From NCBI GenBank assembly GCA_037043015.1, contig CM073322.1, positions 31,615,864 through 31,679,863 on the forward strand: DNA of 64,000 bases. The letters run 5' to 3'. The notes below the pieces were generated by a model that worked only from the letters and a program-made list of their open reading frames with translations, had not been told where the DNA came from and ran no database searches. Within the stretch, counting starts at the first letter, position 1, and every line of letters starts with the position of its first letter. This document shows positions 24,618 to 64,000 of the stretch, piece by piece. This stretch comes from Bryum argenteum. Lineage: Eukaryota > Streptophyta > Bryopsida > Bryales > Bryaceae. The position numbers and the translations under genes are program-made.

Positions 24618-25317
24618 GACAATCTATCTAGTGCGGCGGTGGATCCTCAACCGGCAGCATTGATCTGAAATGTGCATACAAGCCTTTTAAAAACAATGCA
24701 CAAGCAAATTCAGTATGAACGTCTTCATCACTTTCAGAAGACGAAGCAACACTGCAGTTGCTGAGACGATATACATTCGGTGTAAATAGTACTTCGATTC
24801 GGCACTTCACCTGCTCACGGTCTTATAGTGTCCATTCCTTAGTCCTTGACAGGACATGGCCATATATTCGATATATATTACTCCCGAATGATCTCAATAA
24901 ATGTTTAATAAGTAGGGGTCTTCCTGATCTGCAGTCTTGGTTTTCTCTGAAGCTAGAAGGTGCTGTAAATCCAGGGTCCATTGTCAGTGGCACGGCAGTT
25001 AAAGTGGAGCAAGCGTTCATTCTCTCAAGATTGTCAATCGCAATGGAGGGCAAGTTTGCTTTCTTGATTGCTCGCTTGAATTGGACAACTTGTGTCTGGG
25101 GCTTGTGTCCGCATTAGTTGGATCGTGTGTGATTGGTGTGACTATCTATCTAGTGTGGCTGTGGATCCTCAACCGGCAGCATTCGAATGTAACACCAAGC
25201 ATGACTGGAAGCATGATTCGACGTATGACTATTGTGAAAACCGCTGCTAGAGCCGCCATGGCTCCTCCTCAGCATCGAGACTCGGTAAGTGACTGCAGAG
25301 ACAACCGTCGAGACTAA
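24618..25317 (+). pseudogene. Relic copies of the small membrane-protein family
   Basis: From 25003 an open frame without an ATG reads SGASVHSLKIV... then LDNLCLGLVSALVGSCVIGV and TIYLVWLWILNRQHSN, a hydrophobic helix followed by W-I-x-N-R. It aligns with the 31287 gene (ASVQCSLLKK, IDNFLLLLL, NWIHNRR). About 370 bp upstream of the helix the leader text CACTTCACCTGCTCACGG...ATTACTCCCGAATGATCTC matches the leaders of the 27.6-, 31.3- and 62.5-kb copies. A 43-bp piece encoding TIYLVRRWILNRQH-stop (24618-24660) is repeated at 25140-25182 with three mismatches, a further partial copy. The missing start codon argues against function. Confidence 0.55.
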
Positions 25318-25319
25318 AA

Positions 25320-27340
25320 GGATCTAGTTATCTTCCCAAGCCCAAACCATATTTTGAAGCCCAGACCATTTATTGAAGCCTAGGCTGATGAAACCGGAGA
25401 TGGTAGAATCGCTTGTTTAGGAAAGAAAAATAGTTAACTAAGAAGGAAAGATGGCAAATTCTGAAGTGAGTCAACCTTGTGCGGTTGTTATAGATTTTAG
25501 ATCATTAGTTAAGGAGTGGTTTTAAGTCCCGTACAAGTTACTATATATGGTCAAGGGAGTATTGTATTGTATTTGGGTTCTTACCAATAGAATTGGAGTT
25601 TGACAGTGTTTTGGTGAACATCTCTCTATCAAATGCTTTTGACATGGCTACCAAGTTTGGGTTTCTTGGTTAGCCTTTGGCTTTGCATTTAAGTTTTCTC
25701 TACTTCAAGTCCCTTTCGGACATGGTGGTCAGCCTCTGGATTTGTATTAGGGCTTCTTCATTAATTTCTCATTCATGGCTTTCACAACTTGGCTACAAGA
25801 GATACTATAGATGAATGTGATTCAACCTCACAAAAAGTCAAACCGAGCAGGCCTCCCGCTCGCCCGCCCGATCACCTCAACACACCTCAACACGCCTGAT
25901 ATGACAACCTTGATAAAAATCATGTATTTTGGCATCTTTTTGAATGAAGACTCATCATTGCATATCCAATATCAAAATCATCCATGTAAAAAATGATTAA
26001 CTAAAGCTTTGTTAAAATTCATCTAAATATCATGATTATGTAGAAGAATTCCCAAAAAACTATATTTGATTTCACATTTAATTGGCTTGCAATGGTAAAA
26101 CATGCCCCATGTTTAAAAACCTTCAATGCATACGAGTAATTCATACTTTATCATAATATGTACATTTCAACACACAAACTAAAATTGATTTGGGACCGAA
26201 TCCAAGTGATTTTGTCATTATCAAAGTTTGGACATGGCTCTTCAATCAAAATTTTAACCCCTAAATTTCCTTAAAAACCGAAACGGTCTTTTGATGTTTT
26301 GGGCAGCCTTAGTTTCTTAGTAAAAATGAATATTTTTGAGATATTTTTTGGAATTGTGTGAGTTACATTGCAAAGTAGGTGTGGCAAAAATTGCAAAGTC
26401 AAATTCCAATTTTTGAGTCTTCTAGGACAATCCTTGGGTTGCGAGCCGAGATGGGGCAGCTCAAATAAGTAACTTTTTTGATATTTTTTTTTTTGAAACA
26501 TGTTCATTACTAAATCACTACTCAAATTTCAAAATGACGTAAGTCAAATAGTTTGCCAATTTTACAAGGGCAGACTCCAAAAATTTCAAAACCAATCTTT
26601 GCAATGCCCAAAAAAACTTGGGATACAAACTTTGAATGTTACAATCTCTCAAATGGTAAACATCCAACGGTCAATTCTTTGAACAGTAATCAAGTATATT
26701 CTTAGGTACAAGATCTTACGGTTGGAAGTCCTAAAAAAGGAAAAGATATTGGTCCACACCCCCACGAGTGCTTGGAGGTGGAGAATCGCAGATTTGAGTT
26801 TTCAAGCTCCCAAAAAACACCAAGGAAATTTAGGGGTTAACCCTCTATCCAAAATGTAGAAAAACGACATTGGGGATGTTTAGGGGCTGATTCGACTTTA
26901 AAAAGGTTTATAATAACAAACATTATTTATTTATTCCTATGAATTATCTCAAATTAGCAACTGAAATTACACAAAAATAATCTCATAAGTCTCACATAAC
27001 AAAGATGACCACACCACGTGAAATTTTCAAGTTCACTCTAACTATCCCTAACATGGGATAAAAACCAAAACCAAAATCACCATAATGGGATAATTTTTTC
27101 TATTTTAAACTCCTTCTGCATAGAAACCTTCCAAATAACAAATTCTCTGCACCAATTTGATGAATGAGCTACCTTGTGACGAAAGAATGACATTTAAACT
27201 TCCACTTCTTTGAAACTCTATTTTCCCCCATTATCGTTGAAGCTCAAGAGTACACAATGACAAAATGTCAACATATAGTATCAACCTAGTTAATAATTGC
27301 AGTTATTTCTTCAAATTCATTAAACCTAAAAGAAAGCTCT
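25320..27340. other. No gene seen; dispersed repeat block
   Basis: AT-rich. The part from about 26180 to 26260 (TTGATTTGGGACCGAATCCA) belongs to the dispersed segment also found near 21300, 30070 and 32530. The part from about 26340 to 26740 is diverged but collinear with 50640-51050 (AAAGTCAAATTCCAA, TGAAACATGTTCATTAC..AATCACT, CATCCAACGGTCA, AAGATCTTAC). No coding potential. Confidence 0.5.
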
Positions 27341-27632
27341 TCCAAAGAGTAGACAACCTGTTGAGTTTGGCCGACTTCGAAGAAGTTGAAGCAACTTAGG
27401 AGCTGCTATGACGAATAGACGATTCATGTTCTGCATTAATAATACATCGATGTTTCATGTGAAACACTTCACCTTTTCGGAGGATACACTACTAATAAAG
27501 GACGAGAACATAATGATACTCAGTATAAATTACTCCACGATGATTATATTCTATGTGACATGAGTTTGTGGATTCCAAATTTTGTCTGTTGTCGGATGAA
27601 CACAAGTAAACTTCATATTAGCTGTGGTGAGA

Positions 27633-28434
27633 ATGAGCTTGCACAATCAGAGTACTCACGTCAATATAGAGTGTACTAGAACCTTAGCGAGTGTTCAATG
27701 CTCTCTGCTAAAAATGTCATCTCCATCAATGACCAAATATGAATCTACGTTCACGTTTAAGGTTGACACCTTGTTTCTTATGTTACTAGTACCATTCGGA
27801 CTGGGTGTGATCTATGTACTGATCGAGAACTTGGTACCTCAGTGGGTGCAACACTGGGCACTTTGGCTGGCGGGACGGTAGGAATGACGAATGGGGAGAT
27901 AATCTGAATCAAGAGCAGCAAATTTATCAAACCTTGACTAATGAGACAGTGGGAACTGCCACCACCAGAGATGGGACAATGGAAGGCACTATCAGAAATG
28001 GGACAACAGGAACGACGAGGGAAGATACGACCTTGGGCACGGTGAGGGGAGATACGACCCTGGGCACGGTGAGGGGAGATACGACCCCGGGCATGGTCAG
28101 GGGAGATACGACCCCGGACACGGCGAGGGGAGATACGACCCCGGGCACGGTGAGGGGAGATACGACCCCGGACACGGCGAGGGGAGATACGACCCCGGGC
28201 ACGGCGAGGGGAGATACGACCCCTGGCACGGCGAGGGGAGATACAAACCCGGGCACGGCGAGGGGAGATACGAACCCGGGCACGGCGAGGGGAGATACGA
28301 CCCCGGGCACGGCGAGGGGAGATACGACCCCGGGCCCGTCCGCCATGGATCTGACTCCGGCACGCCGGCTGAAATTACTACCCTTGGCACCCCGATCGCT
28401 GATGCCACTCCACGCACGCCCAGCAGCGCTATGA
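27633..28434 (+). pseudogene. Small membrane-protein family member fused to RGD repeat tail
   Basis: ATG at 27633 (MSLHNQSTHV) opens an 82-codon frame: ECTRTLASVQCSLLKMSSPS, then a hydrophobic helix around residues 46-66 (TLFLMLLVPFGLGVIYVLI), ending ...ALWLAGR-stop at 27881. It is about half identical by eye to the 31287 product, and both have the ATGAG(C/T)TTG start. A 1-nt shift just before the stop opens GWRDGRNDEWGDNLNQEQQ, which matches the position of the paralogue's acidic tail and leads without stop into about twelve RGDTTPGTA nonapeptides, ending at 28434. I infer that the ancestral frame ran through and that a single indel near 27870 broke it. Upstream DNA from about 27350 (TTCGAAGAAG, CATCGATG.., ACACTTCACCTT) matches 31020-31180. 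Confidence 0.5.
28019..28337. repeat. 27-bp minisatellite, about 12 copies
   Basis: Units of GGCGAGGGGAGATACGACCC plus CGGGCAC, 27 bp each, with few differences. Because 27 is divisible by three, several frames on both strands stay open: the plus frame gives RGDTTPGTA repeats and the minus frame gives GVVSPLAVP repeats. Only the plus frame connects to the membrane-protein gene upstream. GC content is much higher than in the surroundings. Confidence 0.95.
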
Positions 28435-28539
28435 CTACCAGAACACCCACTAGCCATAGGACCATGGGGGCACTCCATAGGGGCACTCCGACTAGGGATA
28501 AGCCGATCGAACCCCCATTGCCGAGAAAATGAGAACATC

Positions 28540-30470
28540 ACCCATCCGACAAGGAGATTATTACAATGAGCTTAGTAGACAACTGAAGAGTGGCTTACAA
28601 TGACCCCGATTAGACCCATGAATTGATGATCACAATGAGATGATGATTATTATAATCATTGAGCAAGGAAGCTCCAAGTGCTGTCTTATGGTATCGTAGA
28701 ATTAAGGGATTAAATCACAATACCAAAATTTGGACAACTGGTTGTTATGGCAATATAAAGAAAACACAGGGTTAGCGGAGAAAATGAAAACTACTTTGTA
28801 CAAAGTAATGTATGTATGAAGTAAGTATATGCCGAAATTGTACAATCAAATTACAAATTTGATTTCATTCTGCAAGAACTCTCGGCAAGTTTACTTATTC
28901 CTAGCAATTTGATATAAATATTTACTTTGCAAAAAGAGTGATATCAAGCAGAAACACACATAATACTTACGGTCATTTAAAGTGGAATCAATAGTTTCTT
29001 TTGTGGTTTTTCATGGTGAAAGACAAACTCAAATGTATGCGGTATGCTACATTTACTCTATTATAAACATGTTAAGAAATCTAAACAATAGTGGCATTAA
29101 TTAGTCTCATTCATCTACAATAATATATAGATAAGAAGTTATTTTCAGAATATCTCTCTAAGTTCTAGAATATTATTATTTCTCATTCCAAATTTCAAGA
29201 CAAAATAACCATCCTAAAAAATAAATTATAGAAGGAATTCATTATCAAGAGCTATTTTTAACAACCAATATTCCAATCACGGAGTTAAGTATGACAAACA
29301 AATTTGAACCAAGAGAATCATGTATTTCACAAGGATGAGGCTTTGATAAAACCAAATAAGGTATCTACAAAAATGGTAGTCACTTACAAATCTTCAATTG
29401 AGTAAAAAAAATAAAATAAAATACACTCATGAAATATAGTGAAGTCACTCAAAACACAACATGGTCATGCTTTTCATAGTTTGTGCCTTGAAATCACTCA
29501 CATCACAACAACAATGGTCATGTCTTTTCACTATAGTGGTTATGTTGCATTCTTCTTATGTTATACTCATACATTTAACCCCTAAATGGTTTGACTCATT
29601 TGTAGTAAAATGAACACATCCTCAAAAGCATTGTCATAGGTGGAGGTAAAAGTGTGTTATCCAAATCTCAACCGTACAATCTTGTCGTAGACATATTGAA
29701 CATCATGTGGGTCAAATTTTGAGTCATGAGGCTTCATAGATTGCGAGATCATAATGTATTAATACTCAAAAATGATCACATAATTTCATCATTTTCACTT
29801 TAAAGTGAAAATGCTACCATTAGACTTATTGCAATGAAAAAGTCACCAATTAGAATGTTGTTCACCTTCATCTCAGTAGCATCCTTGAACAAAAAAAAAC
29901 CATGAGAAAAATTTCTTTGTGCAAATTATGGCCCTGCAATGGTGAAAACTGCCCTAAATTTTACAAAGGAAAAAATGTCTAAAACTAGGCTGCTGTCACT
30001 GAAATGCATGCCATTAATTCATACTTCATTGTATGGGTCTGAGATTTTCATTACATGAACTAGACTTGATTTGGGACCCAACCCAAGTGATTTCGTCCAA
30101 AACGGAGTCCGGATGAAGAAGTTATGGCTCTCCAAAGTTGGTGTCATCCAAAATGTCGTTTTTCGACATTCGGCCCGCTTAAGGGTTAAGAGTCCAATCA
30201 ACCATTTTATGGTCGATATCAAAATTTGAGTTGTACCCTCTTGAAAAAGATATATATTTTATTTCATTTTTTTACTCTTACTTTCCACAAGTTTGGTGAG
30301 TTGGGAACCACATTCAATTTAGAGAGACTCGTTTGGATTCATGGATTGTTTCCAATAAGCCTTCAAACACAAACAGGGCAAGGAAATAATTTGAAAAATA
30401 TGGCTTGTATTTTAGTACAGGTTGAGTGAACTAAAATACCGGATTTGCTTGGTCCACATTTGTTTGTCAT
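28540..30470. other. No gene seen
   Basis: AT-rich intergenic DNA. Around 30055-30190 is a copy of the dispersed segment (GACTTGATTTGGGACCCAAC, then GAAGTTATGGCTC, then a CGACATT...CGACATT motif), in the same orientation as at 26190 and opposite to 21300 and 32500. It is followed directly by the 30473 MITE. Confidence 0.5.
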
Positions 30471-30472
30471 AC

Positions 30473-30713
30473 ACCTCAATTTCGTTAAAATGGCACTATG
30501 CCATGTGCCATTTTGTCACACCAAATCTTACATATGTGCTCAAACGGAATGGTTTATTCTGTACTAAGTATTACATTTAAAAAAATAATATCACTTCATT
30601 ATATACATTGTCACTCATTTTCCATAATATCACATTCAAAATTTTGTAATATCACATGGTTTTTGCGTTGTAGTTCATAAAGTTGAGGTTTGACATTTTA
30701 ATGGAATTGGGGT
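30473..30713. mobile_element. MITE copy 2, 241 bp, TCATAC target duplication
   Basis: Left end ACCTCAATTTCGTTAAAATG and right end (reverse complement) ACCCCAATTCCATTAAAATG. The interior matches the 20421 copy closely (CACTATGCCATGTGCCATTT, CAAATCTTACATATGTGCTC). It is flanked by an exact 6-bp direct repeat, TCATAC, at 30467-30472 and 30714-30719, which I take as the target duplication. No coding capacity. Confidence 0.85.
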
Positions 30714-31286
30714 TCATACTTAACTGTCTCGAATATTGGTAGTTATACAACATTTGTGACCGATTAAAGATTGAAAGCAGCTTCTGATAAAACAATCACG
30801 GCTTCAAACTTCTTGTTGTTTGAAGCTCCACTTTCTCCCATAATTATCACTGAAGCTAAAAGAACATATTTAAAAAATCCCAATACGGCTTCAACAGCTG
30901 GGACTCCGTCCATACATTCCAAAATCCAAGAGAGAACTCCTTACCTATAATTCAAACTAACCATTCCGTACTTGATATGGAGGTAAGCATACTAACAAGC
31001 CTTTGATCAAACAACACCACAGCCCAACTGAGTTGTCTAACTTCGAAGAAGATGGAGCAACATAGCACCTTCTATGATTGACGATCCATGCTCTGCAACA
31101 CATCGATGCGTCATATGAAACACTTCACCTTCTCGACAGACACACTGCTTATAAATCGCGAGGACATATCGATTCCACAATGATCTAAAATTTATGGGGG
31201 TTCTCATCAGGATTTGAATTTCTGTTTGCTGCCGAATGAACACGCACTAAGCATACAAGGAAAACTTCATGTTAGCTGTAGTCACA

Positions 31287-31616
31287 ATGAGTTTGCAAAA
31301 TCAAACCTCCACGAGTAGTACTAATGATAGCAATATCGAGCGCACCAGAACCCTAGCAAGTGTCCAATGCTCTTTGCTGAAAAAGTCATCTCCATCGGAA
31401 ATCAAGTACAAATCCACGTTCTCGATTAAGATTGACAACTTCTTGCTTCTGTTATTACCATTTGGATTGTGTGTCACCCATGTAGTGCGGAACTGGATCC
31501 ATAATCGGAGAGACGATGGGAACCCCAGAAGTGAAGATGATGATGATCATGAACCGGATTACTTCGAAAGATTTGATAATATCATGTTACGTTACCAAGA
31601 TCATCAAAATCATTAA
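31287..31616 (+). CDS. Small single-pass membrane protein (family of four or five)
   Basis: A 109-aa intact frame starting MSLQNQTSTS; an upstream in-frame ATG at 31269 is possible but the paralogue at 27633 lacks it, so I chose the shared start. Residues 1-50 are polar with ERTRTLASVQCSLLKK; residues 51-68 form one hydrophobic segment (NFLLLLLPFGLCVTHVV); then RNWIHNRRDDGN, a positively charged edge suggesting this side faces the cytosol, and an acidic tail EDDDDHEPDYFERFD. No known domain. The G-L-C-V-x4-R-x-W-x3-R-R-D-x-N pattern is shared with the 62219 gene. The 260-bp leader is conserved with the other copies, which implies either recent segmental duplication or selection. Function unknown; a short regulatory membrane peptide or gene carried by a mobile element are both possible. 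Confidence 0.5.
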   Translation: MSLQNQTSTSSTNDSNIERTRTLASVQCSLLKKSSPSEIKYKSTFSIKIDNFLLLLLPFGLCVTHVVRNWIHNRRDDGNPRSEDDDDHEPDYFERFDNIMLRYQDHQNH

Positions 31617-31619
31617 GGT

Positions 31620-33690
31620 TAGACTGAAGAAATGGTTTATGAATCCTTTTAACCTTTACACCTCATTTTTTGACTTTCAATCGAATAATTGTATTTGTTT
31701 TGGAAAGTTTCAAATAAGTTCTCATTTCTCATGACCATCCGAGAAGCAAAGAAACTACCGTGCAAAAAACTCCAATTTTAAAGATTTTGATGTTTGTTGG
31801 AAAAAGTGTTTCATTTTTGACTCAATGAAATTAAGGGAAAAAATTTGATCCTCACCAAAGAATAGTGTGCTCACCTTGAACCATTTTAAAATAAAATTTT
31901 GGAATCTTATTTGACGACTATGATGTATCTCAAAACCATGATACTAAGCGATCTATTTGTAGTGTGTTTTCGGAATGAAATGTAATTATATACCAATTGT
32001 AAGTATTTTGGTGGGAGTATTTTTGATGATACACTTAGAAATGGTATTTCAGACAAAATTGCACATAAATCCCAAAACAACTTTGTTATTACAACTTTCA
32101 TATGAGTTTCACTTTAGCTTCACGTGAATTTAGAGTAATTTTAAGAGAAAATCTAAAGAAGACTTGAGATATCGATTTTATTTCTCACTTCTTACAACTT
32201 CTTGTCTTTGAAGTAAAATGATTAAGAGTTAATTTTCTCTCTTTCACATGTAGAAAGTTAGATACCAAGCATTCAAATTCATAACAATTCGTACACTATT
32301 TATGTAGTAGAACAAATTAAACATTATGATATCAAAATAGTGCCACATGATAGTGTGATAAATTCTCACCATTGAAAGGATGGTCTAATCTGGTAAAGAA
32401 AATGATAAGTTGGACCCATTTATATCTTTTATAGCCATGAAATGCACCGAATGTGGATAAACAACATTTGTAATGGCAAGCTATCAACTTCAAAGAGTCA
32501 TATCTTTTTCATTTGAGGTAGTTTTGGATGAAATCACTTAGGTTGAGTCCAAATTCAAGTCTAGTGTCACTCATATAGTGTAGTATAAACTATTGGCATT
32601 CATTTTAATGACTGGAGCTCTTTTATCATCCATGAGGCATTGTTTTATGTAGTATTCTATTTTTATTATTCGTAAAAAGAAATTAATATACAGTCACCAC
32701 CTTAAGATAAAGTCCAACAACTTTGTAGTTGAGAGAAGTTCGATTTTGATAATTTTGGTATTGATGCCATATTTAACTACTTCTGACAAGGAGTTCAGAA
32801 GTAACAGCGATCCAACACATGGCATGTTTTTTGTGCTAGAGGTTTGGCTTCTGACTATTGTTCCTTCGTAAAAGCTGTCAAATTCAAACAAATATAGAGA
32901 GGTTTTAGGATTGAACATGTTCTCATACTCAAATCTTTGTTTAAAAGTCATCACAAATCACATTAACAAATTAAGTAGGTCAATTTAAACACAATCAAGA
33001 ACCTTCCTAGCTTGACCTAAAGTGTGGCTAGATAAGCTCCTCCAATGCCTCCCTAATGCATGAGAGCCAAGCTACCACGGTAGCAACTTTAAATTTTCTA
33101 GAATATTACCACATGCCAATTATGTATTTGAGTACATTTCAATTTTTAAGAAGACTTATAGAATTACAAATATATAAAAATTTCCGTAGAATAGGAAGCC
33201 ACACAATAGGTTGGGGAACCTCACGTGCCAAGCCTTTTTGTTGATGCTTTGAAGGCCCTTCATTATGCACTTTATGCACTAGTGACCAAATGAACTATTA
33301 CACTTAAGTTTATACACCTAAGTTTACTTTCACAAAATCATCCAATAAATAAATAAACAAATAATTCATTACTAGAAAGTTTGTATAACAAGCTTTACAA
33401 GAATCTATAAAAAGGCTCACAACAACTCAAAAAACTATATTGCTTAGATCTTCAGTTGCACTCCTACCTTATTCCACCTTTTTTACTTTTCAACCTATCA
33501 CATCAAACCTAACAACAAATGTGAAGGTATAGAAATTTGAAGATACACAAGACATTCAGAATATTATGTTATTTATTGCTTGAATTCGGTATTTAGCATT
33601 ATAGAACTATTGTTATGAAACTAATCACATTAGCAAAATTTGGTGTTCAAGTTTGTAATCAATGTTGCATTCAAGAAGCGTTTGAATTGT
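31620..33690. other. No gene seen
   Basis: AT-rich intergenic DNA. At about 32460-32600 is an inverted-orientation copy of the dispersed segment (AACAACATTTGTAATGG, AAGAGTCATATCTTTTTC, GATGAAATCACTTAGGTTGA). Nothing else recognised. Confidence 0.5.
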
Positions 33691-33792
33691 AAATGTAATC
33701 AACGACAAGTGTTATGTACAAACAACCAATCTACATTTACATTGTAAATGTAATCAACCACAAGTGTTACATATGTACAAACAACCAATCTA
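33690..33792. repeat. ~64-bp imperfect tandem duplication
   Basis: TTGTAAATGTAATCAAC followed by ACAAGTGTTA...TGTACAAACAACCAATCT occurs twice in tandem. The second copy was interrupted by the SINE insertion: its continuation CTACATTTACAATGTAC resumes at 34210 after the element. Confidence 0.8.
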
Positions 33793-34201
33793 GATAGATA
33801 GATAGAAACTCCGGTCCCTTTCTAAGGGGCCGGCGTGAATGAAGTGTCCGTTCGTCGTGAATGAAGTGTCCGTTCGTAATGCTAATATCACGATGGCCAC
33901 GTAATGCTAATATCCCGATGGCCACCGGACAAGGGGAAATTGGAACAATACTACTTCCCCCTCTCGAGGGTGGACACTATAACTACGCTAGTTTTTAGCC
34001 TAGTAACTAATGCCTTGAAGATACTTGACATAGTATCCCCCCAAAGGGCTTTGAGGTACCCATACAACAAGGTCCAAAGACCCCCCACAATAGTTGGGTG
34101 GACTATAGTGGTGAGCACCACGCCGGCATGGGGATTAGAACCCACGACCTCCTCATTGGGGGCCTAAGCCCTAACCACCAAGCCAAGGCTTGTGGTGCCT
34201 T
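33793..34201 (-). mobile_element. tRNA-derived SINE, 409 bp, 12-bp target duplication
   Basis: Read on the minus strand it starts GGCACCACAAGCC, has a box-A-like TGGCTTGGTGG (34185-34175) and a box-B-like GGTTCTAATCC (34142-34132) separated by 32 nt, the spacing of an internal RNA polymerase III promoter. It ends in a TATC microsatellite tail (TTTCTATCTATCTATCTAGA). It is bracketed by an exact 12-bp direct repeat ACAACCAATCTA at 33781-33792 and 34202-34213. These are the hallmarks of a SINE copied by a LINE reverse transcriptase. A direct duplication GTGAATGAAGTGTCCGTTCG sits near 33835-33875 inside the body. The plus-strand open frame across it is not coding. Confidence 0.9.
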
Positions 34202-34414
34202 ACAACCAATCTACATTTACAATGTACTCAAGTACTATGTATATCAATGTCAACAAATATATCATTATATGTTCAATGAATTACAATGAACAACTAACTA
34301 CTACTAGTAAATCATTTGTACTTAAACCATTGTATATACAATTGTTTCGAACATTGTCTTGAGGGACATCACATTCAAGTATCCTTCACATCATGTGATA
34401 CTAACAATTGATCT

Positions 34415-34957
34415 TCAAAAAAGTAAAAAATATGCCTCTTTGCAAAAAGATACTGTAATCTCGTTCTTCCATTGTGCGACAAGAGTGTTGTCTCCATTGC
34501 CACCCAAGTACTCCTTCATTTGAGAACTCTCTATCAAGGAAGCAAGAGCAACCTTAAATTTATCCTTAAAACAGTCAAGCCTCTTCTTCATCTCATTTGT
34601 ATGGTGTTGGCATGCTTGGATGTAAAGCTCAAAGCATTTTAGTTGATAAGCTTTGGTGCACTCTACTCGAGCCGCATCAAATATAGCTTGTGATTCTGAA
34701 CAATCAAATACTGTTGTCGCAATCTTCACTTGGGGAATGTTGAAGCCAAAAGAAGGAGGGATGTCTTCTTTTTTAAGTTGGCAATTAAGCTTCTCTAAGT
34801 GCTTTTCACAACCTCCAACATAGAAATACAAGTCTTTACATTGTTTAACAGTCATTGTGAGAAAGTCTTTAAGGAACGATGGCATGACTTTGTCAATAGA
34901 ACAATGAGTAGTCTCTTTGTTGGCCCGTAACCGCTTGTTGGAAGCTTGTTTCTCCAT
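34415..34957 (-). CDS. Hypothetical 180-aa single-exon protein
   Basis: Intact ATG-to-stop frame, starting MEKQASNKRLRANKET. The middle is predicted mostly helical by composition: VMPSFLKDFLTMTVKQCKDL, KHLEKLNCQLKKEDIPPSFG, ECTKAYQLKCFELYIQACQH and MKKRLDCFKDKFKVALASL. Nine Cys are spread without zinc-finger spacing. No signal peptide or membrane segment. I do not recognise a family; charged helical text with a PPSFGFN turn could belong to a gag-like or nucleocapsid-like protein of a transposon, or to a lineage-specific gene. Codon text is free of breaks over 543 nt in AT-rich DNA, which supports it being or having been coding. No introns or promoter identified. Confidence 0.5.
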   Translation of the reverse strand: MEKQASNKRLRANKETTHCSIDKVMPSFLKDFLTMTVKQCKDLYFYVGGCEKHLEKLNCQLKKEDIPPSFGFNIPQVKIATTVFDCSESQAIFDAARVECTKAYQLKCFELYIQACQHHTNEMKKRLDCFKDKFKVALASLIESSQMKEYLGGNGDNTLVAQWKNEITVSFCKEAYFLLF

Positions 34958-50347: not shown

Positions 50348-50349
50348 AC

Positions 50350-51752: not shown

Positions 51753-52228
51753 AATTTTTTTTTCTTGAGCTATGCATATTCGAGTACCCGAATAGTTTTG
51801 TCACTGCAGAATGTTGTCACGATGATCGACAATGCGAGCCCAGTTACAGCAATCGAGGTCTAGCTAGAACCAGCCGTAGTTAGTTAAACTCAGCCGCCGT
51901 TCGTATAAACTCAATCGCCGTTAGTACGACTCAGCCGCCACAACAGTCCGGTTAGATCAGCGTTCGCCCTTGCTGAACCTCAGCCGCCTAGCCGTACCTG
52001 GGCCGTCACCGAAGCCAACGAGCTGCTCAGTCACGGCAGCCACCAAGCTGCTCCGTCCTTGCAGCCAACGACCTGCGCCGCCACTGCACCGTTACTTGCC
52101 CCCGAAACACCGAACTCCCTGACCGTAGATGACAGTTTAAACCGCAACATCGCAGACACAGCGTTGACAGCATCGACAGCCCCGATATTTCCGGCGAAGC
52201 AACTCAACCGCCGAACCTGCTGGACCTC
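51753..52228 (+). other. Retrotransposon leader
   Basis: Untranslated leader between the primer site and gag. It contains repeated CAGCCGCC / CTCAGCCG words at about 51890-52090. No gene. Confidence 0.5.
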
Positions 52229-55012
52229 ATGCTCAATCCCACAATCATGGCAACCATGCGCGAGACACGCACGCAAACACTGATGTTTGACCCGCTTGCG
52301 CCAGACGGCACAAACTTCCTCGAATGAAACAGCGATGTAACGACGTACCTGTGCGCGGAGGAGTTAGATGGTGCGCTGGATCGAGCCACAGCAGCCGAGA
52401 TGACTACGGCGTGGCGATACCAAGCGCTCATGCTCATCAAACGCCATCTTGATCCTTCACTTCGCCAACAGTACATCGAGTGTCAGGACCCTGCGGACCT
52501 CTGGCAACAGCTCCAAGAACGCTTCCGTCACGGTACGAGCTTACTACTCCCACAAGCTCGTAGTGAATGGATGAATCTACGCGTCCTGGACTTCCCTAAC
52601 ATGCAGGGATTCAACGCCGAACTTCACCGAATTGCCGCGCAACTCCGGATGTGTGGAGACCGTGTCACTGATGCGGAGCTAATCGACAAGACTCTATCCA
52701 CGTTCCCTCCGGCCACTGCGATCCTGTCACAACAATACAGGAACATGAGGTTCGCAACACACTCCGAACTCATGTCATACCTGCTGATGGCTGAGAAGCA
52801 GCAGGTGATCTTGCTCAAGAACGCGGAGTCCCGCCCCGCCCGCGAGATTCACAGTACCGAGCCAACACCGACGCCCCAGCCCGCAATTACTCCTGTGCCA
52901 GTGCCAGTTTGCGCCACCGCCACGACTACCATCGATCGCGAGACCCACAGCACGGAGGCCGCGAAGCGCAACCCGCGTGGACACGGCGGTCGAGGAGGAG
53001 GCCGCGGTCGTGACTCCCGAGGTGAGCACTATCGAAACTATTATCGTGACAACCGCAGGGACGGCCACCGGAGTGACAACCGTGATCGTGATTCAACCGA
53101 GAGGTACTCACATGACTCGAGGTCAAACTCTCAATATGAGAGAGATGGCCAGTCCAGTAGGTCATCAAAATCTGATCACGGTCCTGGTCCGTGTCATAAG
53201 TGCGGGCGTCACGGGCACTTTGCCCGGGAATGTCGCACCGCACCTTACTTCGTCGATATGTACCAAGAATTACGAAAACTAAAGGAGGAGAAGAGGGAGG
53301 TGCACACCCTCGATGCTCCCTCCTTTAGCAATGTCGACTTAGAGAATTATATGACACAGTTAAGTCCCGATATCGTGTCAGATCCGAGTGTTGCACTGCT
53401 TGATAGTGCATCTACTCACACAATCTTGAGGAGTCTGGTCTTCTTTGAGTCCTCATGTATGCGCGGACCCTGGCAAGAGTGCAAGGTAGTCACTATCGCC
53501 GGAAGCCGGAACTTCAAGTTCCGGGAGGGCCGGGCAATGATTGAATTGCCAGGGGGATTCCCCCTCGTATGTGACCGGGCCATGTATGCCCCAGACGCAC
53601 CCCGGAGCCTGATCAGCTACCGGGACTTGCGCAAAAACGGGATCCATATCTCCACCTCGGTGGAAGATAATGAAGGCACGGAGGTGCTAAAACTCCAACC
53701 CAAGACGGGCGCCCCAATAGAAGTGAGAGCGACTACGACGGGACTCTACCCACTTCAAGTGAAGGTGCCAACCTCGACCCAACTTGAGTGCCACTTCACT
53801 GCGTTGCCCAGGGCGCAACTTTGGCACCGGAGATTCGGTCATCCCGGCACCACCATACTACGCCGGATGTTGCCGATTCTCGAAGGTCACCCGTTGAACA
53901 CAAGCGATGCGGACAAGGCGCCAGACTGCGTTGCTTGCATCCAAGGCAAGTACTCCAAGCACCCAGCAAAGTGGAAGCTCCCCACTGAACTTCCACAACC
54001 GCTGGAGCGTCTACACGGGGACATCTGTGGACCGATCAACCCTCAATCGGGTCAGTTCTCATACTTCCTGGTCCTCGTAGATGCTTCTGGTAGCCACGCC
54101 GAGGTGTCTTTGTTGACAATTCGTAACATGGCGTTTCCCAAACTCCTAGCCATGCTCATTAAGTTTAGAGCACACTTCCCAGATAAACCAATAAAAACCT
54201 TGAGGATGGATAACGCCATGGAGTTCCGCTCACATTCCTTTGAGGACTATTGTACAGCGTCCGGAATCGCACTAACATACGCGGTTCCGTACGAACACAC
54301 ACAGAACGGCCTTGCTGAGGCCTACATTAAGAAGATTCAGCTAGTAGCCAGACCCTTGCTTATCCATGCTAATCTCCCTTCAACTATGTGGGGACATGCA
54401 GTCTTGCATGCCGCCACATTACTTAGGTTCCGCCCAATACTAATCAATTCTCAAACGCCCTTAGAACTAATCTCGGGACGAACTCCAAATGTAAGACACT
54501 TGCGTGTCTTTGGGTGCCAAGTATTCATACCGGCACCCGAACCTCAAGTCAAGACAATTAGCGTCCATCGAATTGAAGGTGTATACGTGGGCTTTGATAG
54601 CCCAAGTATCATCCGCTATTTAGACCCCAAAACCGGGGCCCTTCATAAGGCCCGGTTTGAGAATTGCCGCTTCATAGAACATGTTTTCCCCTCGGTTCCC
54701 AACCAAGGAGAAAACAAGCCTCTCCTCTTTCGTGCCACCCAGAGTTTCACAATGAACCCAGACCCTAGAACTGCAATTTCTGAGACTGAAGTCCAGAAAT
54801 TGCTCCAGCTTCAAAGTATTGCTAGTCGAGTGCCAGACGGATTTGACTCCGGTCCCAGAATCTTACGTAACCCCATCCCGGGCGCCGGAAATCCCAAACC
54901 GGCACCCGGAATGAAACCAGTCAAGGAAACAAACATCCCAGGTCCTAGTAATCCCAAGTCCTCAAAACAACCTAAGATACTCAAGGTACCTAAAGCACCC
55001 ATAGCAAAATGA
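52229..55012 (+). pseudogene. gag-pol: copia gag-protease-integrase, interrupted
   Basis: From ATG 52229 the frame meets TGA at 52325, where relatives have a conserved Trp, then is open to TGA at 55010. Gag part: helical region to about 52830, then Arg/Gly-rich tract and a CCHC knuckle CHKCGRHGHFARECR at 53192-53233. Protease: LLDSASTH at about 53399 (Asp-Ser-Ala in place of the usual Asp-Ser-Gly). Integrase: HRRFGHPG with a later CVACIQGK (HHCC zinc motif), then LHGDICGP, LRMDNAMEF and QNGLAEAYIK, giving the Asp-Asp-35-Glu triad; NAMEF replaces the common NGGEF. The product would be cut into capsid, protease and integrase. The 870-codon open part suggests little time since inactivation, or inactivation at a few sites only. 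Confidence 0.9.
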
Positions 55013-56903
55013 GCCAAGGTTACTAATGGTAGTGGTTCCCTCGAAAAACCAACTGATCCTCATTCACAGGTAGCACCCCAACCACCCACAGAGCTGCATT
55101 TTTCTCAACCTGAGGAATTGAACCTCACGTTAGGGCCCGATCACCCAGTTGAGGTGATGGGATCAAACTAAGGCCACTACACCCGATCCCATTGGAAGTC
55201 GGAAGTAGAGCACACTCCCGTAGTTCAAGTACCCATAGAACTAGAAGTTGAAGCATTCGTAACCCAACTAACATCTCTCGATAATGACCCTCTAACTCTT
55301 GAACACGCACAAAATCGGCCAGATTGGCCACAGTGGAAACTCGCGCTTGAAGCCGAGTACCACTCTCTTCGCAAGCGCGAGGTGTTCGGTTCCTTACGCA
55401 CAGATCTTAAGACCAAACCCATTGGTTACAAACTAGTATTCATAAGGAAACGCAATGAGCATGGGCAAGCGACACGATACAAAATACGATGTGTCGCCCA
55501 AGGCTTTAATCAAAGACCGGGAGTGGACTTTGACCATGCTTACTCTCCGGTCATGGATTGCTCTTCCTTTTGTTTCCTCCTTGCCCTAGCTGTGCAGATG
55601 ACTCTCACCACGAAGCTCCTCGATGTCGTGACCGCCTACCTCTACGGCGAGCTTGATGAGGAGATATTCATCAAGCCACCACCGCAGTTCTTGGACACAA
55701 CTCCAACACCCCTTGCGGGACTTCAGGTACAACGGCCTTCGCTTGTGCAAGGCGTTGTACGAGCTTAAACAAGCCGGGAGGGGGTGGTATCATCACCTCC
55801 GCCGTTTTTTAATTGAAAATGGCTTCACCTGCAACCAGGCACTCCCTTGCATATTCGCCCGGGCCGCACAGGGTGAGTTTGTCATTTTAGCTGTTTATGT
55901 CGATGACATAAACCTTGTTGGCTCACCAGACTTGTGCCAGGAAGTTGAGCAACTTCTCGTAGCCCGCTTCGAGATGAAGCTTCTCGGGCGAACAACATTC
56001 TGTCTAGGACTTCAGGTTCACCACTGCCCCGATGGCAGCATTCTCTTACACCAAGAGACGTACACGAAGAAGCTTCTCAAGAGCTTCAACATGGCGGAAT
56101 CGAACTCAGTGTCAGCACCAATGATAGGACGGAGCAAGACCGGCGACGATCCATACCGACCTTGCGAGGAGGAGGAGGACGAGGTCGATAAGACCAAGTA
56201 CCTCGCCGCGGTCGGTGCTATCTTGTACCTCGCCACGCACACACGCCCCGACATTGCCTTTGCGACGAGTGTTCTTGCTAGACACAGCAAGAAACCAGCT
56301 CAACGCCACTGGAACGCGGTTAAGCATTTGCTTAAGTACCTCCGCGGTACGGAGGACTTAGGCCTTCACTTCACGAAGACCGCCGACTCGAACATATCCG
56401 GTTATGCAGATGCAGGTTACAAGACCGATGAGACGATCGGCAAATCCCAGACTGGCTACATCTTCATCAAGTGCGGAGCTCCCATCTTGTGGCGCTCAAT
56501 GAAGCAGACCGTGACGGCCACTTCAACAAACCACGCCGAACTCATAGCACTTCATGAGGCGGCACGCGAAGCCGTGTGGCTCCGCACCATGGTGAGCTCG
56601 ATTTCTGAGATGTGCAGGTTCCAACAGACTACAGGAGCAACACTGATCTATAAGGACAACGCCGCAGCCGTTGCCCAAGTCGGCGCGGGCTTCATCAAGG
56701 CAGACAGAGTTAAACACATCAGCCCGACGCTCTTCGGCTACATGCAGGACTTGATCGAGAGCGACCAGGTGAAGGTGCACAAGATAGAGTCGGCCCGTAA
56801 CGTTTCCGACATTTTAACCAAGGCCCTGCCTGCTTACAAACACCGCCAGCTCGTTCGTGCCGCCGGCATGAGAACACTTCAAGAGCTCGAGTCTTCCACT
56901 TAG
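55013..56903 (+). pseudogene. gag-pol: copia reverse transcriptase and RNase H, interrupted
   Basis: Continues the same frame after the stop at 55010, with a further TAA at 55169, then is open 55382-55768 with RYKIRCVAQGFNQRPG and LDVVTAYLYGELDEEIF (reverse-transcriptase core). A 1-nt frame change at about 55710-55725 passes to the frame that is open to 56903: LCKALYELKQAGRGW, the catalytic YVDD at 55894-55905, RNase H text GYADAGYKTDETIG, TSTNHAELIALHEAAREAVW and IYKDNAAAVAQ. Polymerase and RNase H acidic residues are visible. The enzyme would copy element RNA to DNA inside virus-like particles; as it stands this copy cannot make it whole. Confidence 0.9.
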
Positions 56904-56977
56904 GTGCGAACGGGGAGAAACTCTTTTCTCCTCCCGAGACCTTCCGGGGAGGAGTTTTTAGTGAGTCTCCCTCGTTC

Positions 56978-56986
56978 GAGGAGGAG
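56978..56986 (+). promoter_or_regulatory. Polypurine tract
   Basis: GAGGAGGAG immediately before the 3' LTR, the expected primer for plus-strand DNA. A second purine block, GGGGAGGAG, is at 56946-56954. Confidence 0.8.
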
Positions 56987-57268
56987 TGTTGTGGAAGCAC
57001 TCGCACTTCTCCCGGGTTGACTTCCACCCACCCACCTTTTGCTTATCCAGAAGAATTTAGTTAGGGCCGTTAGCACATTGATGGAGCTTGCTTTACGGAG
57101 ATCGTGGAGCCACGTGCCGTATCTGCACAGGGCGGCCGAGCCGCCACTTGCATTTACACTTTGTACCTACTTTCTCCAACTGGATTTAAGCTTCTTCTCC
57201 CGCCATTCGCGGGCTCTTCTTTTTCTCTTCCATTCTGTTTTGCTTCGGAGCTCTCCCGGCTCCTAACA
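56987..57268 (+). repeat. 3' LTR
   Basis: 282 bp, same sequence as the 5' LTR, ending CTCCTAACA and followed by the GATTA duplication. Confidence 0.97.
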
Positions 57269-58970
57269 GATTATGTAAAGTAGGAGTGACCGTAACCGGA
57301 TGATCAGAAAAATCTTCTCGGATATTTTTGCTGCCCGCGACATGTAACTCAGCTGCCCGAGTGAAGAGCCTCTCACTCTGCTACAGAAATTCCCCTTCTA
57401 CACCTCAGGCTGCCCGTATAAATAAGAGTCAGAGTTTAGAGGGAAAGTCATCCTGGAAGTTGCAAACAGAGGTTATAAATTAATGATTGTAAACAAGCAT
57501 TAGAGGGTGGGTTTACACTAGAGCGAGGGCCATTTGAGAATGGAGGCCAATTCGTCCCATGTGGCATGCAAACAAGCCCCAAATGCCATGAATAAAAAGT
57601 AACTCTAGTGCATTTATTGTCCTGACACGGCCTCCAAGAAGATGAAAGGAACCCACCATTTCCGAGCTCTCTTTTGAGAGGCTTGGGCCCATATCAGTGG
57701 CATTTATTTTGCTCACAAAAAACTAACTTAGTGGAGAGGCTTGGGCCCATATCAGTGGCATTTATTTTGCTCACAAAAAACTAACTTAGTGTAGACGAAT
57801 ATTCTATAAACAATATTGGCTCCCACTCCCAATGTAGCCTTATCTCCTACACCAATGAGGGAGCTCTATTTCCATGGCCCCAATTCATAACTCAGCCTCC
57901 AGTCTTTGTGTAAACTGGGCTCTTATTACTCTTTCCAACTTTTTGGGCTGGGTTACTGCAGTCAGTCCTTTTCTCCAATTTGGACGTCTATCTTGTGGTT
58001 TCTTTTTCAAAAGCTTTGAATTTCCTACATGCTGCAATTTTGCATGAAGGGGGCCCATGCAGAGATGCTCCATGTGATAAAAGAAGTTTTTTAGAAAAAG
58101 CTGTACATGCAAGTCATGTACTTTGTGGAATATGAAGAGCTCTTTCTTAAAGGTGAAGGTAAGTCAAATATATATTGTTTTGTATTGTAAAATGAGGAAT
58201 AGTTCCAAACAGGTCGTGATAATGTGTGATGATGGGTTTATCAATTCTATAGAGGGTTGACTTTTCCTATTTCTTCTATAAAATTTTAGAATAGGAGATT
58301 GTCCTTACTTAAATCACTTGCTATGGTAATTTTTAATCCGCTAAGTTTTCTCTTACCATACTGGCTCTTTCCAGTTTAGACATTCGTCTTAGCTAGCTCT
58401 ATCTGATTTATACGTGTAAACTTCCTAATTCGAACATTGACATATAACTTATAAAACCTTCAGAAATGCTTAATTCTTCACATGGAGGTGTGCTTAAATT
58501 CAAATACAACTTAGGCCCATTTCCAACAATTCAAAAGGCATGTACAAAATCTCAATGATAAGATCATTCCCTACTACCATTTCTATGAGTAAAAAAATGA
58601 AAACCTGGAAAAAAAGTAAGATCTCAATTTTTGGTGAGTTTTTGAAGTTTCCGCATTTTAATCAATTTGGGGCAGATTTTGAGAATAATCGGAGCAATTA
58701 CAAGAGTTTGGGCAATTTTGGGCGCATTTTGAATAGTGTTTTCAAACTGACAGTGAATATCTTTTTAAGTATAAGGAATTTTAAAGCATGAGTTGACTTT
58801 TCAGTAAGGTATGGGAAAACTCTACAACCTCTTATAGGTTTCAACCTTAGAAACCTTATGCAATCGAAAAAAAGCAAAGTTAGGTCGAATGGATTTGGGC
58901 CTCAATCACCTTAAGGGGTTAACATAATTGGGGTTACTACCACAATGGAGTCCCTCCACTTTCACAACTT
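57269..58970. other. No gene seen
   Basis: Continuation of the pre-insertion locus. Holds a 58-bp tandem duplication at 57676-57792 and a T/A-rich part with short open stretches (58540-58791) that I cannot support as coding. Confidence 0.4.
57676..57792. repeat. 58-bp tandem duplication
   Basis: GAGAGGCTTGGGCCCATATC...CAAAAAACTAACTTAGTG occurs twice in tandem, starting at 57676 and 57734, with no visible differences. Confidence 0.95.
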
Positions 58971-58974
58971 TTCG

Positions 58975-60055
58975 GTTAGAGAATGCAATGCTCAGCACTA
59001 TGCTTCAGGTCAGGCCGTTACGTTACGGCTACAGGTTAGGAGATAGGGGAGAGAAAAAAGACGCTCACCAATAGACAGGGGAGAGGAAATAGGGGAGAAG
59101 AAAGGAAATAGGGGAGAGGAAATAGGGGAGAAGAGAGGAAATAGGGGAGAGTAAATAGACGCTCACCAATCATATTTGCTAACAAGTCGGTTATAATAGA
59201 AATTATTTTCTACCAGTAAAGTCTCTGCCACGTGACACTCTTCCATTGGTTAACCCTTGAAGGTCCTTGGGGTCTGAAACGGGCAGCCCAAAATTGGATC
59301 ACTATATCTTTTGGACTTGGGCATCATGAATAGTGCACTTTTAAAACTTGGGCATCATGAATGGATCAATGATGAGCTTGCAACCTTCTACAAGTTTATG
59401 TACGACCCAACCTACCTACCACAATCCTTTCAAAGCACAAATCACTCATACAAATTGTGCTTTGATTTGTAGAATTTCACTCTTTGAATGCATTACAAGA
59501 AGGTGACCAGTTTGGCATCAAAATATAAGTGAAAAGTTGAGTACAATGAGAGCTACAAGGCATATTCTCTTGCAAAGCAGCCCCTCGCTCTTGCAAGGAC
59601 CTTCAAGGGTTAATAGGGACGCTAAAATGTGAATGAAAACAATGAGTAACTTGGAGTTATGGTGTTCTAGAATTTAGGAGACCTCAACCTTCTTGACAGA
59701 TCTCTGTATGTTGGTGTCACGAGCGTTTTTCGGCAGCCAAGAAGGAGATGGGTGAATTGCCTTCTAATTTTTGATGTATAGGCATAAATGCTAAGGTACT
59801 TTGAGTTCGCAAACCTCAAATTTGAATTCAAATTTATCAAAAACGGTCACCGGGGATCCAAATGAAGAATTCCACAAATTTTGAAGAAAAAACCCTATTG
59901 GCTGATTGGGGCTCTGAAAAACGCTCTTAGCAGTGAAATACAGGGCCCCTTCTTGACCAGGTTACAGTAATAGTGTGTGTGAGCTGGGGTTCCTCACACT
60001 CCAAAGAAATAAGGCTCCACTCTCCGGTCCACAGTGCGGGCTGGGCATGCTCTTA
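58975..60055 (-). mobile_element. Inverted copy of the 44-kb dispersed element with internal purine minisatellite
   Basis: Read on the minus strand, blocks at 60050-59985, 59242-59160 and 59040-58980 match 44268-44328, 44443-44526 and 44583-44640. This copy is longer: about 740 bp separate its first two blocks. Between the second and third blocks is a GGAAATAGGGGAGA minisatellite (59062-59155) flanked by direct GACGCTCACCAAT motifs. No coding region seen; element class unknown. Confidence 0.5.
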
Positions 60056-60059
60056 TCGT

Positions 60060-62200
60060 ACACGGCGGAATGGAACACCTTCGATAATCGGTACAGTATT
60101 AGATCGATCACCACCTCGCAGATAATAATCCACCAAATTAGCAGATAATCTGATTGAAAACATTCGATGGGCATCCTTTCCGGGAACATCAAAAGCATTC
60201 CCGATAAGGCAAACATCCGAACACCCAATCGTCGGGGACCACTCTCACATGCGATCAGGCTTCGCCACTGGCTCCCATTCCGGCGCTTCAGCAAATCCGC
60301 ATTCAAGACAACTTTTCAGATCCCTGCTCGGGTTAATCGCATTCAATAGACCTCGGATGTGTCAACCACTCCACAGCTCCTCCTTTTCTCTTCCTCGCAA
60401 TCAACAAACAGCTTTGGAGGCTTGGAGCCACACCGAAAGCGGGCACTGCAACTACTAGAGACATTCTGCCTATGGTTGACCACACGAGAATTGACAAAAC
60501 ATCTATATATATCTTCCTATCATCGTCTGTTTCATGCATTGACTTGATCACGAGTGCACTGTAGCAAGTACTTTATCTATCGAATTTCCAGTTTGTGGTT
60601 CCCCGTTCATGCTGTACACAACTTATTGATTACTCATGGATAGAACGATCATTAAATGCTGCTTTCTTGATCGTACTTGGATCTTGATTTGGCCACTTCG
60701 GGAGCAGCAACATGCTCTCACTGTTCATGAGACAACTGGTTTACGTCGAAGTCCAGACGTTAGAAACGTTAGATCACTGGTTTATTACGAAAAGTAGCAC
60801 ATTAAAAAGATGGGAAGTATTGGATTTTATAGTAGAAAGTGAATAAGGAAAGAATACTGTATTAAATGTAGGCTACTTGTAAATAGCATAATGACAAAAG
60901 ATTTGGAATAAAATAGGAGGATCAATCTCATTCAATAATTCTCCACTTCAAGGATTGCTGAGGTTATTATAAACTTTTCACAACGTTCGTTCTTCATTGA
61001 CCAAGAATTTGGACTTTTAGTAAGTACTTTGTATTAAATTGTGTACTTGCATCTCAATATTTAACTAATTCTTGTACTAGTGGGAAAGTGTGGTATCTCC
61101 ACCACAAATGTTTCCTCCTTGAAATCCTTGTGGAATGAGTAATTCAAATACAATACCACACTTCTCAGCTACGTCTACCTGTCATTTTTTTTCTCTTTCA
61201 GTTTCCACAGGTTCATTTTTTAACTTGTACATAATTACTATTCAGACTTTTAGTTTTATAGATATTCCCTCAACACAAATGGAATCAATTACTGATGATG
61301 TCGATAAAAGTGATAAATTTAGATTAACTGGTGGAGGTCCATTATGTGTCTTCAATTATTTTCAAGTATTCTCAAGGAAGATCTAATTATTTGATCTCAA
61401 GCTCTCCACTACAAAATCAGTGCAAGCTTTTCATAAGTGGGTTCATGTAATGGAAGGAATTGACTCAATGAATCATGCATTCCTTGGCTCAATCACCAAA
61501 TTCCCTTCTCCTGAAGCCTCGTGATCAACGCACCGCAAAAGCGTAAGATCCGTGTCTTTCATTAGACTGATAAAGAATCATGCAACTTGCGCTGTCCATT
61601 GCTTTTAGATTCTGCATCGAGTCTCGACACATTCTGATTCTTATCATACGTATACCCCATTTATTGCTTCTGGACTATTGCACGCCTTGTGATTACTCAC
61701 GGAATCCCAGAACCAAATTCAAATTTGAAAAAAGTATCACGGAGGACTCATCGAACCAATCTCCATCTAGCTTCTACATGGTTAGGATCGATGAAAATCA
61801 CCGTAATAGAGAACGGTACGAATAACTACCTATTCAACTTGCTTGAGTCCTTCCAAGTCCAGTAAAGCATCATGACGAACCTCCCTAACTTGACAAATTA
61901 ATCACATTCCAGATAGCACCAAAGAGATGATCACATTCCGGATATTAGTACCTTACCCTTTTTAGGAAACCATCAGAATCTTGCCTATTTGTGTAGGTAC
62001 TCTAAACTACTACTTCCACCAAGGAAGTAATCTAGTTGCAAACCAGACAACTTTGACGTTCGTTTCCCCGAAATGGAGTTCTGCAACATGTAGAGGTAAA
62101 TTTAAGACCCTGGTAAGTAAGCCGCTCAGTCTTACAACAAGCTTTTCTGGCATCTCTTTATATCTCTACGCATATGTAACTTGGAACCCATCATCTTTCC
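60060..62200. other. No gene supported
   Basis: Mixed AT-rich DNA. Plus-strand open stretches at 61135-61386 (with a hydrophobic start) and 61580-61825 have no family text or splice context. Nothing repetitive recognised. Confidence 0.4.
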
Positions 62201-62218
62201 TTCCTGTAAAAGTACCAA

Positions 62219-62491
62219 TTACTCCCATTCGGGTTCTGGTAGCCTATATGGTCTTGACCATGGTCGATCCTCTAGATTGACATCAGAGAACCGTGACTCA
62301 TCATCGTCGTCGAAATCAACTTCCAACTCTTGATGCTCATCGACATGATTACTGTCTTCTTGTTCCAAGCGTCGACTCACAAATTTTAATGGTGTTGAGT
62401 TCGCATCTCGCCGGAACCAGCGCCACAGAAGAATCATTACACACAGTCCAACTGGTGTCACCACAGCAAGCCAGAGGTACTGGTTTTCCAT
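62219..62491 (-). CDS. Small single-pass membrane protein, dispersed family member
   Basis: A 90-aa intact frame starting MENQYLWLAVVTPVGLCVMI: one membrane helix at residues 5-21, then LLWRWFRRDANST and a long acidic tail (ELEVDFDDDDESRFSD). The P-x-G-L-C-V helix end, R-x-W and R-R-D-x-N match the 31287 product. The N-terminal polar region of the other copies is missing, because the start lies right at the helix. The leader on the minus strand (TCACTTCACCTTCTCGGAG, then CAGTATAAACCACTCCACAATGATCT, about 62735-62640) matches the leaders of the 27- and 31-kb copies, so the relationship is not just chance similarity of helices. Function unknown. Confidence 0.5.
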   Translation of the reverse strand: MENQYLWLAVVTPVGLCVMILLWRWFRRDANSTPLKFVSRRLEQEDSNHVDEHQELEVDFDDDDESRFSDVNLEDRPWSRPYRLPEPEWE

Positions 62492-62499
62492 TCTAAAGA

Positions 62500-64000
62500 G
62501 AACATGAATTTAAACACTGGATCCTTGCTCGATCGCCTGCTCGTGATTGTTGAATGTCAGTTTCGAGTAATGGAGGTCTGCTTTGGCAAACTCCTTGTGA
62601 GGTGCTACCTTGAAGCGAAGGTTGCAACTATTCCACTTGTGTTGTGGAATAGTGAGATCATTGTGGAGTGGTTTATACTGAAAGTGGCGAGAAGTTATAA
62701 TGAGTGTGCTCCGAGAAGGTGAAGTGATTCACGTGAAATCAGAAGGATAATTGAAATGACAACTTGAATTGAATGAGTATTTATGCGGGACATGTATCGT
62801 CGTTAAATCGTTAATTAATGCTTCGTCTTCCTCAGAGTGAATCAACTTTTGCGTATAAGTTTTTGTTGTTGTAAGTTAGGACCTCCGTAATTGGGTACTC
62901 AACCTCCGATGGCTCACGGGTTGTGATTTTGTGAATGCCTAATGTCATCTCCAAGTGAGACAAATGACCCATTGAATCGTGATGTGTGGGATTTTAATTT
63001 GAGATAATCAATTTTAACATTGTTGAAAACTCTCAAATTAGTACCACGTAACTACTAATTTTCAAAGAATTTGATTGTACAAATCTACTTTTTTTGTTAA
63101 GAATGAGGTAGATTTACAGTTTTAGGGAGCTTTACAAGTTAGGTTACGACCACATTGTTTGATAGGGCTTAAGATTCTCTTTGATAGGGCCTCAAATTCC
63201 TAGAGGCTCAACCCTCAACATTGTGAGTATTATTTGTGCGTTCGGGAAATAAGTGGAAGACCATATCAAGTGGAATTGTCAATTTGGACTCTCTTATAAT
63301 TTGTTATGAATTTTTGGAGTTGAACTTATTGTGTTCCTAAAGTGGTGTCCCAAAATGACACCCTAAATCCATGGACCATGGTTGGTATGTGCATAATCAT
63401 AACTTTTGCTTTTAATATCAATCTCTATGTAAAAAGGCTTGTGAGCCATTACTGGTAGTGTATTTGTTGGTTTTGAGCAGTCTACCTTACACCATAAGGT
63501 CACAAGTGTACATGGTTATTCTTGGGAATTCCCTTAACATGAAAGGTAAGAATACCAAATCAGTACGAAGTGTTTGCTCCACGATTTGCTCCACGGTCTA
63601 CCGTAGGAAGTACCGGGAATGTTCTTGGTACTTTGAATCGTCTGAAATAGTTCCACCTTAGTGTGCTTCTGGTTGGCAACTTTTACCGTGTTGGAAAATT
63701 CTTTGAATCAAAATTAGTACCTTATGGTTCTCTTTATGTAAGTATACTTTTATAATGAACCCAACAACTTTGAATTCTAGTCTGGAGATTTTTCATTAGA
63801 AAGGTATCGATATCAAATTTGCAACTATAATTTTTTATTGAAAAAAAAGTTAAAATTTCCCATGGTGAGTCGGGTGCAGTATTTTCTTTATCCTTTGGTG
63901 GCATCTTAACTACATTTTAAAGATTAGATTCCAATTTAAATCTAGTTGTTAAAAGAGATCTTAGGAAAAGTTGAGATATTATGGAGGTATGTCTATATTT
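62500..64000. other. Leader of the 62219 gene, then no gene seen
   Basis: 62500-62760 is the conserved leader of the small membrane-protein gene. The remainder is AT-rich without recognised features; a plus-strand open stretch at 63458-63661 is not supported. Confidence 0.4.

Follow-up and report, generated by a model that had tools for sequence, protein, structure and literature searches.

Four related copies in the window

The window, the whole stretch of 64,000 nucleotides analysed here, lies in a genome of 259 Mb assembled in 25 contigs. It carries four related copies of a short unit, three on the forward strand near 25.0, 27.6 and 31.3 kb (c1, c2 and c3) and one on the reverse strand near 62.3 kb (c4), all within a span of 38 kb on one chromosome (Table 1). 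An initial annotation had described these copies, together with a short fragment at 24.6 kb, as a family of tiny single-pass membrane-protein genes with conserved leaders. Alignment of the four segments with one another confirmed the homology for all six pairs, with scores between 198.5 and 475.5 (z 7.5-34.6, from 200 dinucleotide shuffles per pair). Every pair score exceeded the highest score of the shuffled sequences (171.5) and those of a control set of 150 unrelated window segments (168 or less). The fragment at 24.6 kb was also found to be real, being a partial duplicate of c1.

The closest pair was c2 and c3, of which positions 27138-27861 and 30747-31523 are homologous in two pieces. 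In all four copies the homology included about 75 bp upstream of the leader as initially described. By alignment, the common order of elements runs from an upstream GAAG..GAAGCA..GACGAT through CACTTCACCT and a TATA-like site to the CCACAATGAT block, which a variable spacer separates from the helix-coding sequence. At the position of the ATG shared by c2 and c3, both c1 and c4 read AGG, a point absent from the initial annotation. When the predicted proteins were compared, c1-c2 and c2-c4 stayed at shuffle level (252 and 51 of 500 shuffles scored as high, respectively), and c1-c3 was weak (18 of 500).

Table 1. Features of the four-copy family, numbered from the first nucleotide of the window
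Feature	Position	Strand	Remarks
Window	C2:31615864-31679863		Contig coordinates
Partial duplicate of c1 helix end	24617..24661	+	45 bp, 93% identical to c1 25139-25183
c1 leader and degenerate N-domain	24728..25080	+	Out of frame with the helix, by eye
c1 helix-plus-tail open frame	25081..25317	+	78 codons from a TTG; probably a relic
c2 conserved leader	27368..27555	+	Homology to c3 from about 27138
c2 ORF	27633..27881	+	82 aa from the ATG common to c3; N-domain and helix alike, C-terminus differs
c2 downstream open frame	27823..28431	+	203 codons, out of frame with the helix, largely minisatellite
c3 conserved leader	31034..31189	+	CACTTCACCTTCTCG, TTATAAATC, ATTCCACAATGATCT; homology to c2 from about 30747
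c3 ORF	31287..31616	+	109 aa; N-domain (MSLQNQ..KIDN), hydrophobic at residues 51-67, then RNWIHNRRD and an acidic tail
c4 ORF	62219..62491	-	90 aa (MENQYLWL..WRWFRRD..acidic tail); N-domain unreadable
c4 conserved leader	62652..62843	-	Holds 28 bases missing in the other three

Other features of the window and the genome

Besides the four copies, the window contains a pectinesterase exon, a 422-bp tandem array at 5362-8237 (6.8 copies, with several overlapping ORFs of at least 150 aa) and a Copia-type retrotransposon at 52400-56903. Matches to gag, the zinc knuckle and integrase were found in the ORF 52400-55012 of this element, and its second long ORF lies at 55653-56903. Just 3' of c3, the segment 31935-33457 forms an inverted pair with 70441-68903 (numbering continued past the window end); the two are about 1.5 kb long and 86% identical.

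Five matches to the SAM domain of LEAFY (LFY) were observed in the genome, by which the organism belongs to the land plants or their near algal relatives; a moss is probable. One is LFY itself on contig C5, and the other four lie at C9:6647737-6652933 (two), C10:4785982 and C3:17027128. The LFY DNA-binding domain was not detected in L042 and L043, segments of about 3.2 kb each that cover two of these four further matches. One LFY copy reads ...NKPKMRDYVHC...GAWCQACY, the D and C residues of which we take to be those of the moss type of LFY.

Constraint on the reading frame shared by c2 and c3

A strong codon pattern was observed between c2 and c3. Over 66 codons the dN/dS ratio was 0.17, a value as low as which was reached in none of 5000 null draws, the differences being 27.0 at 47.1 synonymous sites and 25.0 at 150.9 non-synonymous sites. 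By codon position the differences numbered 20, 8 and 24, and the gaps in the frame were of 12, 3 and 3 bases. Neither copy has a stop codon in this frame, while 77.5% of the null draws gained one. The other two forward frames gave ratios of 0.50 and 3.71, with 11 and 6 stop-bearing codon pairs, respectively; one reverse frame was also lowish at 0.38, although 4 of its codon pairs carry stops.

The initial annotation had proposed calculation of dN/dS for the helix region, and c2-c3 gave there a ratio of 0.44 over 18 codons (null 0.034; 10 residues identical), a weaker constraint. The strongest constraint was found elsewhere, in an N-terminal segment missing from the initial description: over its 45 codons the ratio was 0.24 (null 0.001), and 34 residues were identical. 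The C-terminus of c2 has no match to that of c3. On the constraint of their frame, c2 and c3 are credible as working genes.

Downstream of c2, a 27-bp minisatellite at 28012-28335 (12 copies at 92%) reads TARGDTTPG in the 203-codon frame, and the opposite strand of this region also has long open frames. An intron aligning this frame with that of c2 was considered by eye; a joining of the two would be hypothetical.

Probable decay of c1 and shortening of c4

Purifying selection on the shared frame was detected for one of the six pairs, c2/c3, and there at a high dS of about 1.1. The five pairs involving c1 or c4 gave ratios of 0.66-0.85, none significant in pN/pS (null fractions 0.066-0.499). 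All four copies had been taken for genes, and for c2 and c3, which keep the constrained frame, this reading stands. It does not stand as such for c4, which is truncated at the N-terminal side, nor for c1, which is frame-shifted and has no ATG before the helix. In c4 the N-domain appears by eye to be mostly deleted, and an ORF of 90 codons for helix and acidic tail starts at its own ATG. Copy c1 is probably a relic, and c4, truncated as it is, may still make the anchor-tail half.

As both c1 and c4 read AGG, the N-domain ORF could instead have been gained in c2 and c3, by birth of a start codon in front of an older anchor-tail gene. We regard this course as rather improbable; in an alignment that holds no outgroup, the data agree at least equally well with loss of the N-domain from c1 and c4. 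If the N-domain were indeed restricted to one sub-branch, a step of gene growth would be visible within a local cluster.

Predicted properties of the products

Each ORF has a single hydrophobic peak, at 17-residue hydropathy values of 2.38, 2.61, 2.01 and 2.52 for c1 to c4, and in terms of hydropathy the helix initially assigned to all four copies was thus recovered. A single-sequence model of c3 contains three helices including one at 51-75, at low confidence (mean pLDDT 60.3). Hydropathy and this low-confidence model are both consistent with one helix of membrane-spanning strength, as predicted for a single-pass membrane protein.

Other shared traits claimed for the products were found in part of the copies. 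The R-x-W / NRRD motif after the helix is present in c3 (RNWIHNRRD) and c4 (WRWFRRD) and loosely in c1 (VWLWILNRQ), but not in c2. Likewise, the tail is acidic in c3 and c4, where the net charges beyond the helix are -6 and -10, but basic in c1 (+5) and neutral in c2 (0). The charge within 15 residues after the helix was +1, -1, +2 and +3 for c1 to c4, and that before the helix -1, 0, +1 and -1. The positive residues after the helix give a weak hint that the tails of c1, c3 and c4, acidic in the latter two, might face the cytosol; c2 carries no such sign.

By Pfam scan of the four family proteins, the best match was at E 0.054 and all stayed below the curated cut-offs, and by PDB profile search no relative above chance was found (best E 1.3). 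Viral or bacterial origin of c3 was discarded, as none of 25 pattern matches in viral contigs and 119 in bacterial/archaeal contigs was confirmed. In those parts of the literature that were accessible, nothing recognisable as this family was found.

The conserved leader

The claim that leader words are conserved held for CACTTCACCT, found in all four copies. The other two words are exact only in some: TTATAA in c3 and c4, with CTTATAG in c1 and CTAATAA in c2, and ACTCCACAATGATCT in c4, with c3, c1 and c2 differing from it by one, two and three mismatches, respectively. Just upstream lies a CANNTG sequence in three copies (CACGTG in c4, CATGTG in c2 and CATATG in c3; none there in c1), and the TATA-like sites precede the CCACAATG block. 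Of 156 leader positions compared between c2 and c3, 122 are identical, as added up over three alignment blocks (62/75, 37/50 and 23/31). This level is higher than those of the next spacer (30/54; Fisher 0.0024), of 4-fold sites (10/19; Fisher 0.023) and of synonymous sites (about 20/47; Fisher 8e-6). Immediately before the ATG the identity is 26/32, indicating that constraint outside the ORF extends beyond the leader. As the simplest reading, we favour a promoter or 5' untranslated region as the nature of the leader.

The leader could also be coding, if the copies are exon remnants of a larger gene in which it is spliced to the exon of N-domain and helix, or if it holds a short upstream ORF. 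One leader frame reads FMFC..NTSMFHVKHFTFSEDTLLIKDENIMI in c2 and SMLC..NTSMRHMKHFTFSTDTLLINREDISI in c3 and is open in both over 90 compared bases, with a common ATG, a 6-base gap that preserves the frame and a ratio of 0.45; HFTFS is also read in the leader of c4, and HFTCS in that of c1. However, this ratio reaches a null fraction of only 0.06, while 0.044 is obtained for a reverse frame that contains stops. Moreover, c4 has a stop just upstream in the leader frame, and c1 continues differently. By eye no donor site is common to c2 and c3; c3 lacks the GTATAA that c2 and c4 have. On balance, the leader is unlikely to be an exon; if it were, a spliced transcript starting upstream of CACTTCACC would be expected. 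The block further upstream (27197/30807) was also tried as coding in one frame and was unsupported (ratio 1.10, null 0.65).

Conservation of the leader could further mean that the copies are regulatory repeats or yield a non-coding transcript, and that the ORFs are incidental. Among the larger blocks compared between c2 and c4, conservation is highest in CACTTC..TATA (31/38), and the lack of significant coding constraint in the pairs with c1 or c4 also agrees with such a repeat. This reading is quite improbable: between c2 and c3 the codon differences follow a single frame in a strong pattern, and both other forward frames contain stop-bearing codon pairs.

Distribution of the family in the genome

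The 259 Mb were searched with the DNA of c3 and c4, the proteins of c1, c3 and c4 and a 16-base leader word; c1 DNA, c2 DNA and c2 protein were left out as queries, and the match counts are lower bounds. With c3 DNA or protein, c3 and c2 only were recovered, and with the c4 queries c4 only. The c1 protein retrieved c1 itself and four weak places (E 0.121-3.65). No close copy of the family was thus found outside the window at a reach limited to close relatives, and the further copies for which the initial annotation had proposed a search did not appear; those diverged as far as c1 and c4 would escape. A nucleotide profile of the four copies, far more sensitive, was applied to the surrounding 264 kb. 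At E<1 it detected only the four copies and the 45-bp fragment (E 0.0027), followed by four other matches at E 1.6-5.9.

The leader word, with one mismatch allowed, was found at 15 places against 4 for a control pattern. Three of them are c2, c3 and c4, and of the other 12 six lie in two clusters on contig C4. When the family profile was run over 14 loci (L007-L020), it matched c2 and c3 themselves (L008 and L009) and gave one match at E 9 in L016; none of the 12 non-family places did better than this. A second leader word was unspecific (45 matches against 26 for a control). These results fit local duplication. The term local is firm for close copies only, because the genome-wide searches miss divergence at the level of c1 and c4.

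The initial annotation had offered carriage by an unknown mobile unit as one of two explanations, and the copies, dispersed, one of them inverted and set amid many interspersed repeats, might be cargo or an internal part of an old, nearly extinct element whose distant copies would escape queries that reach close relatives only. Against it, no close copy exists elsewhere by DNA or protein, the homology ends raggedly instead of at common ends, and no terminal inverted repeats above the shuffle range were found in the flanks of the four copies, where inverted scores of 17-23 each fell below their own shuffle 95% value (21-28); the one direct-flank score of note, 24 for c2, is weak and equals the shuffle maximum of 24. 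Within the limited sensitivity of the queries, we consider a mobile unit very unlikely.

Discussion

The four copies are probably best explained as a plant gene family without recognised relatives, duplicated locally on one chromosome and long diverged, of which c2 and c3 are the two credible genes. The initial proposal of a lineage-specific family under selection is thereby upheld for selection as far as c2/c3 is concerned. As to lineage, the comparisons covered Pfam and PDB, and for c3 also viral and bacterial/archaeal contigs, and no relative was found among them.

We propose that c2 and c3 would be transcribed from a conserved promoter of their own, composed of the E-box-like CANNTG, the CACTTCACCT block and then the TATA-like site, and translated into single-pass membrane proteins of 82-109 aa. 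The N-terminal segment conserved over some 50 residues would be the functional part, presumably for protein binding, with the helix as its anchor and with tails that may drift. For the cellular role, a doubtful first guess is that the protein serves a larger membrane complex as adaptor or regulator.

Such a family would add to the small membrane proteins an unnamed group, probably from a moss, in which two paralogues show clear selection. It would also illustrate, within a small cluster, how a gene without known relatives is duplicated, truncated and lost to decay. Families of this kind are common in plant genomes, and the surprise is modest for this reason.

Two classes of plant genes are close to the present family. 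Lineage-restricted (orphan) genes likewise encode short proteins without Pfam or PDB match, occur in few local copies and show selection detectable inside the family; the orphan class is defined by absence from other plants, whereas the comparisons made here were with Pfam, PDB, viral and bacterial/archaeal sequences. Work on small ORFs, such as PMC9638090 and studies of mosses, is the background of the second comparison. Translated small ORFs or micropeptides of plants resemble the four copies in size, in an ORF that requires no intron and in the predicted membrane helix. Unlike the single small ORF of such micropeptides, c1 to c4 form a duplicated family of old divergence (dS about 1.1) with predicted ORFs.
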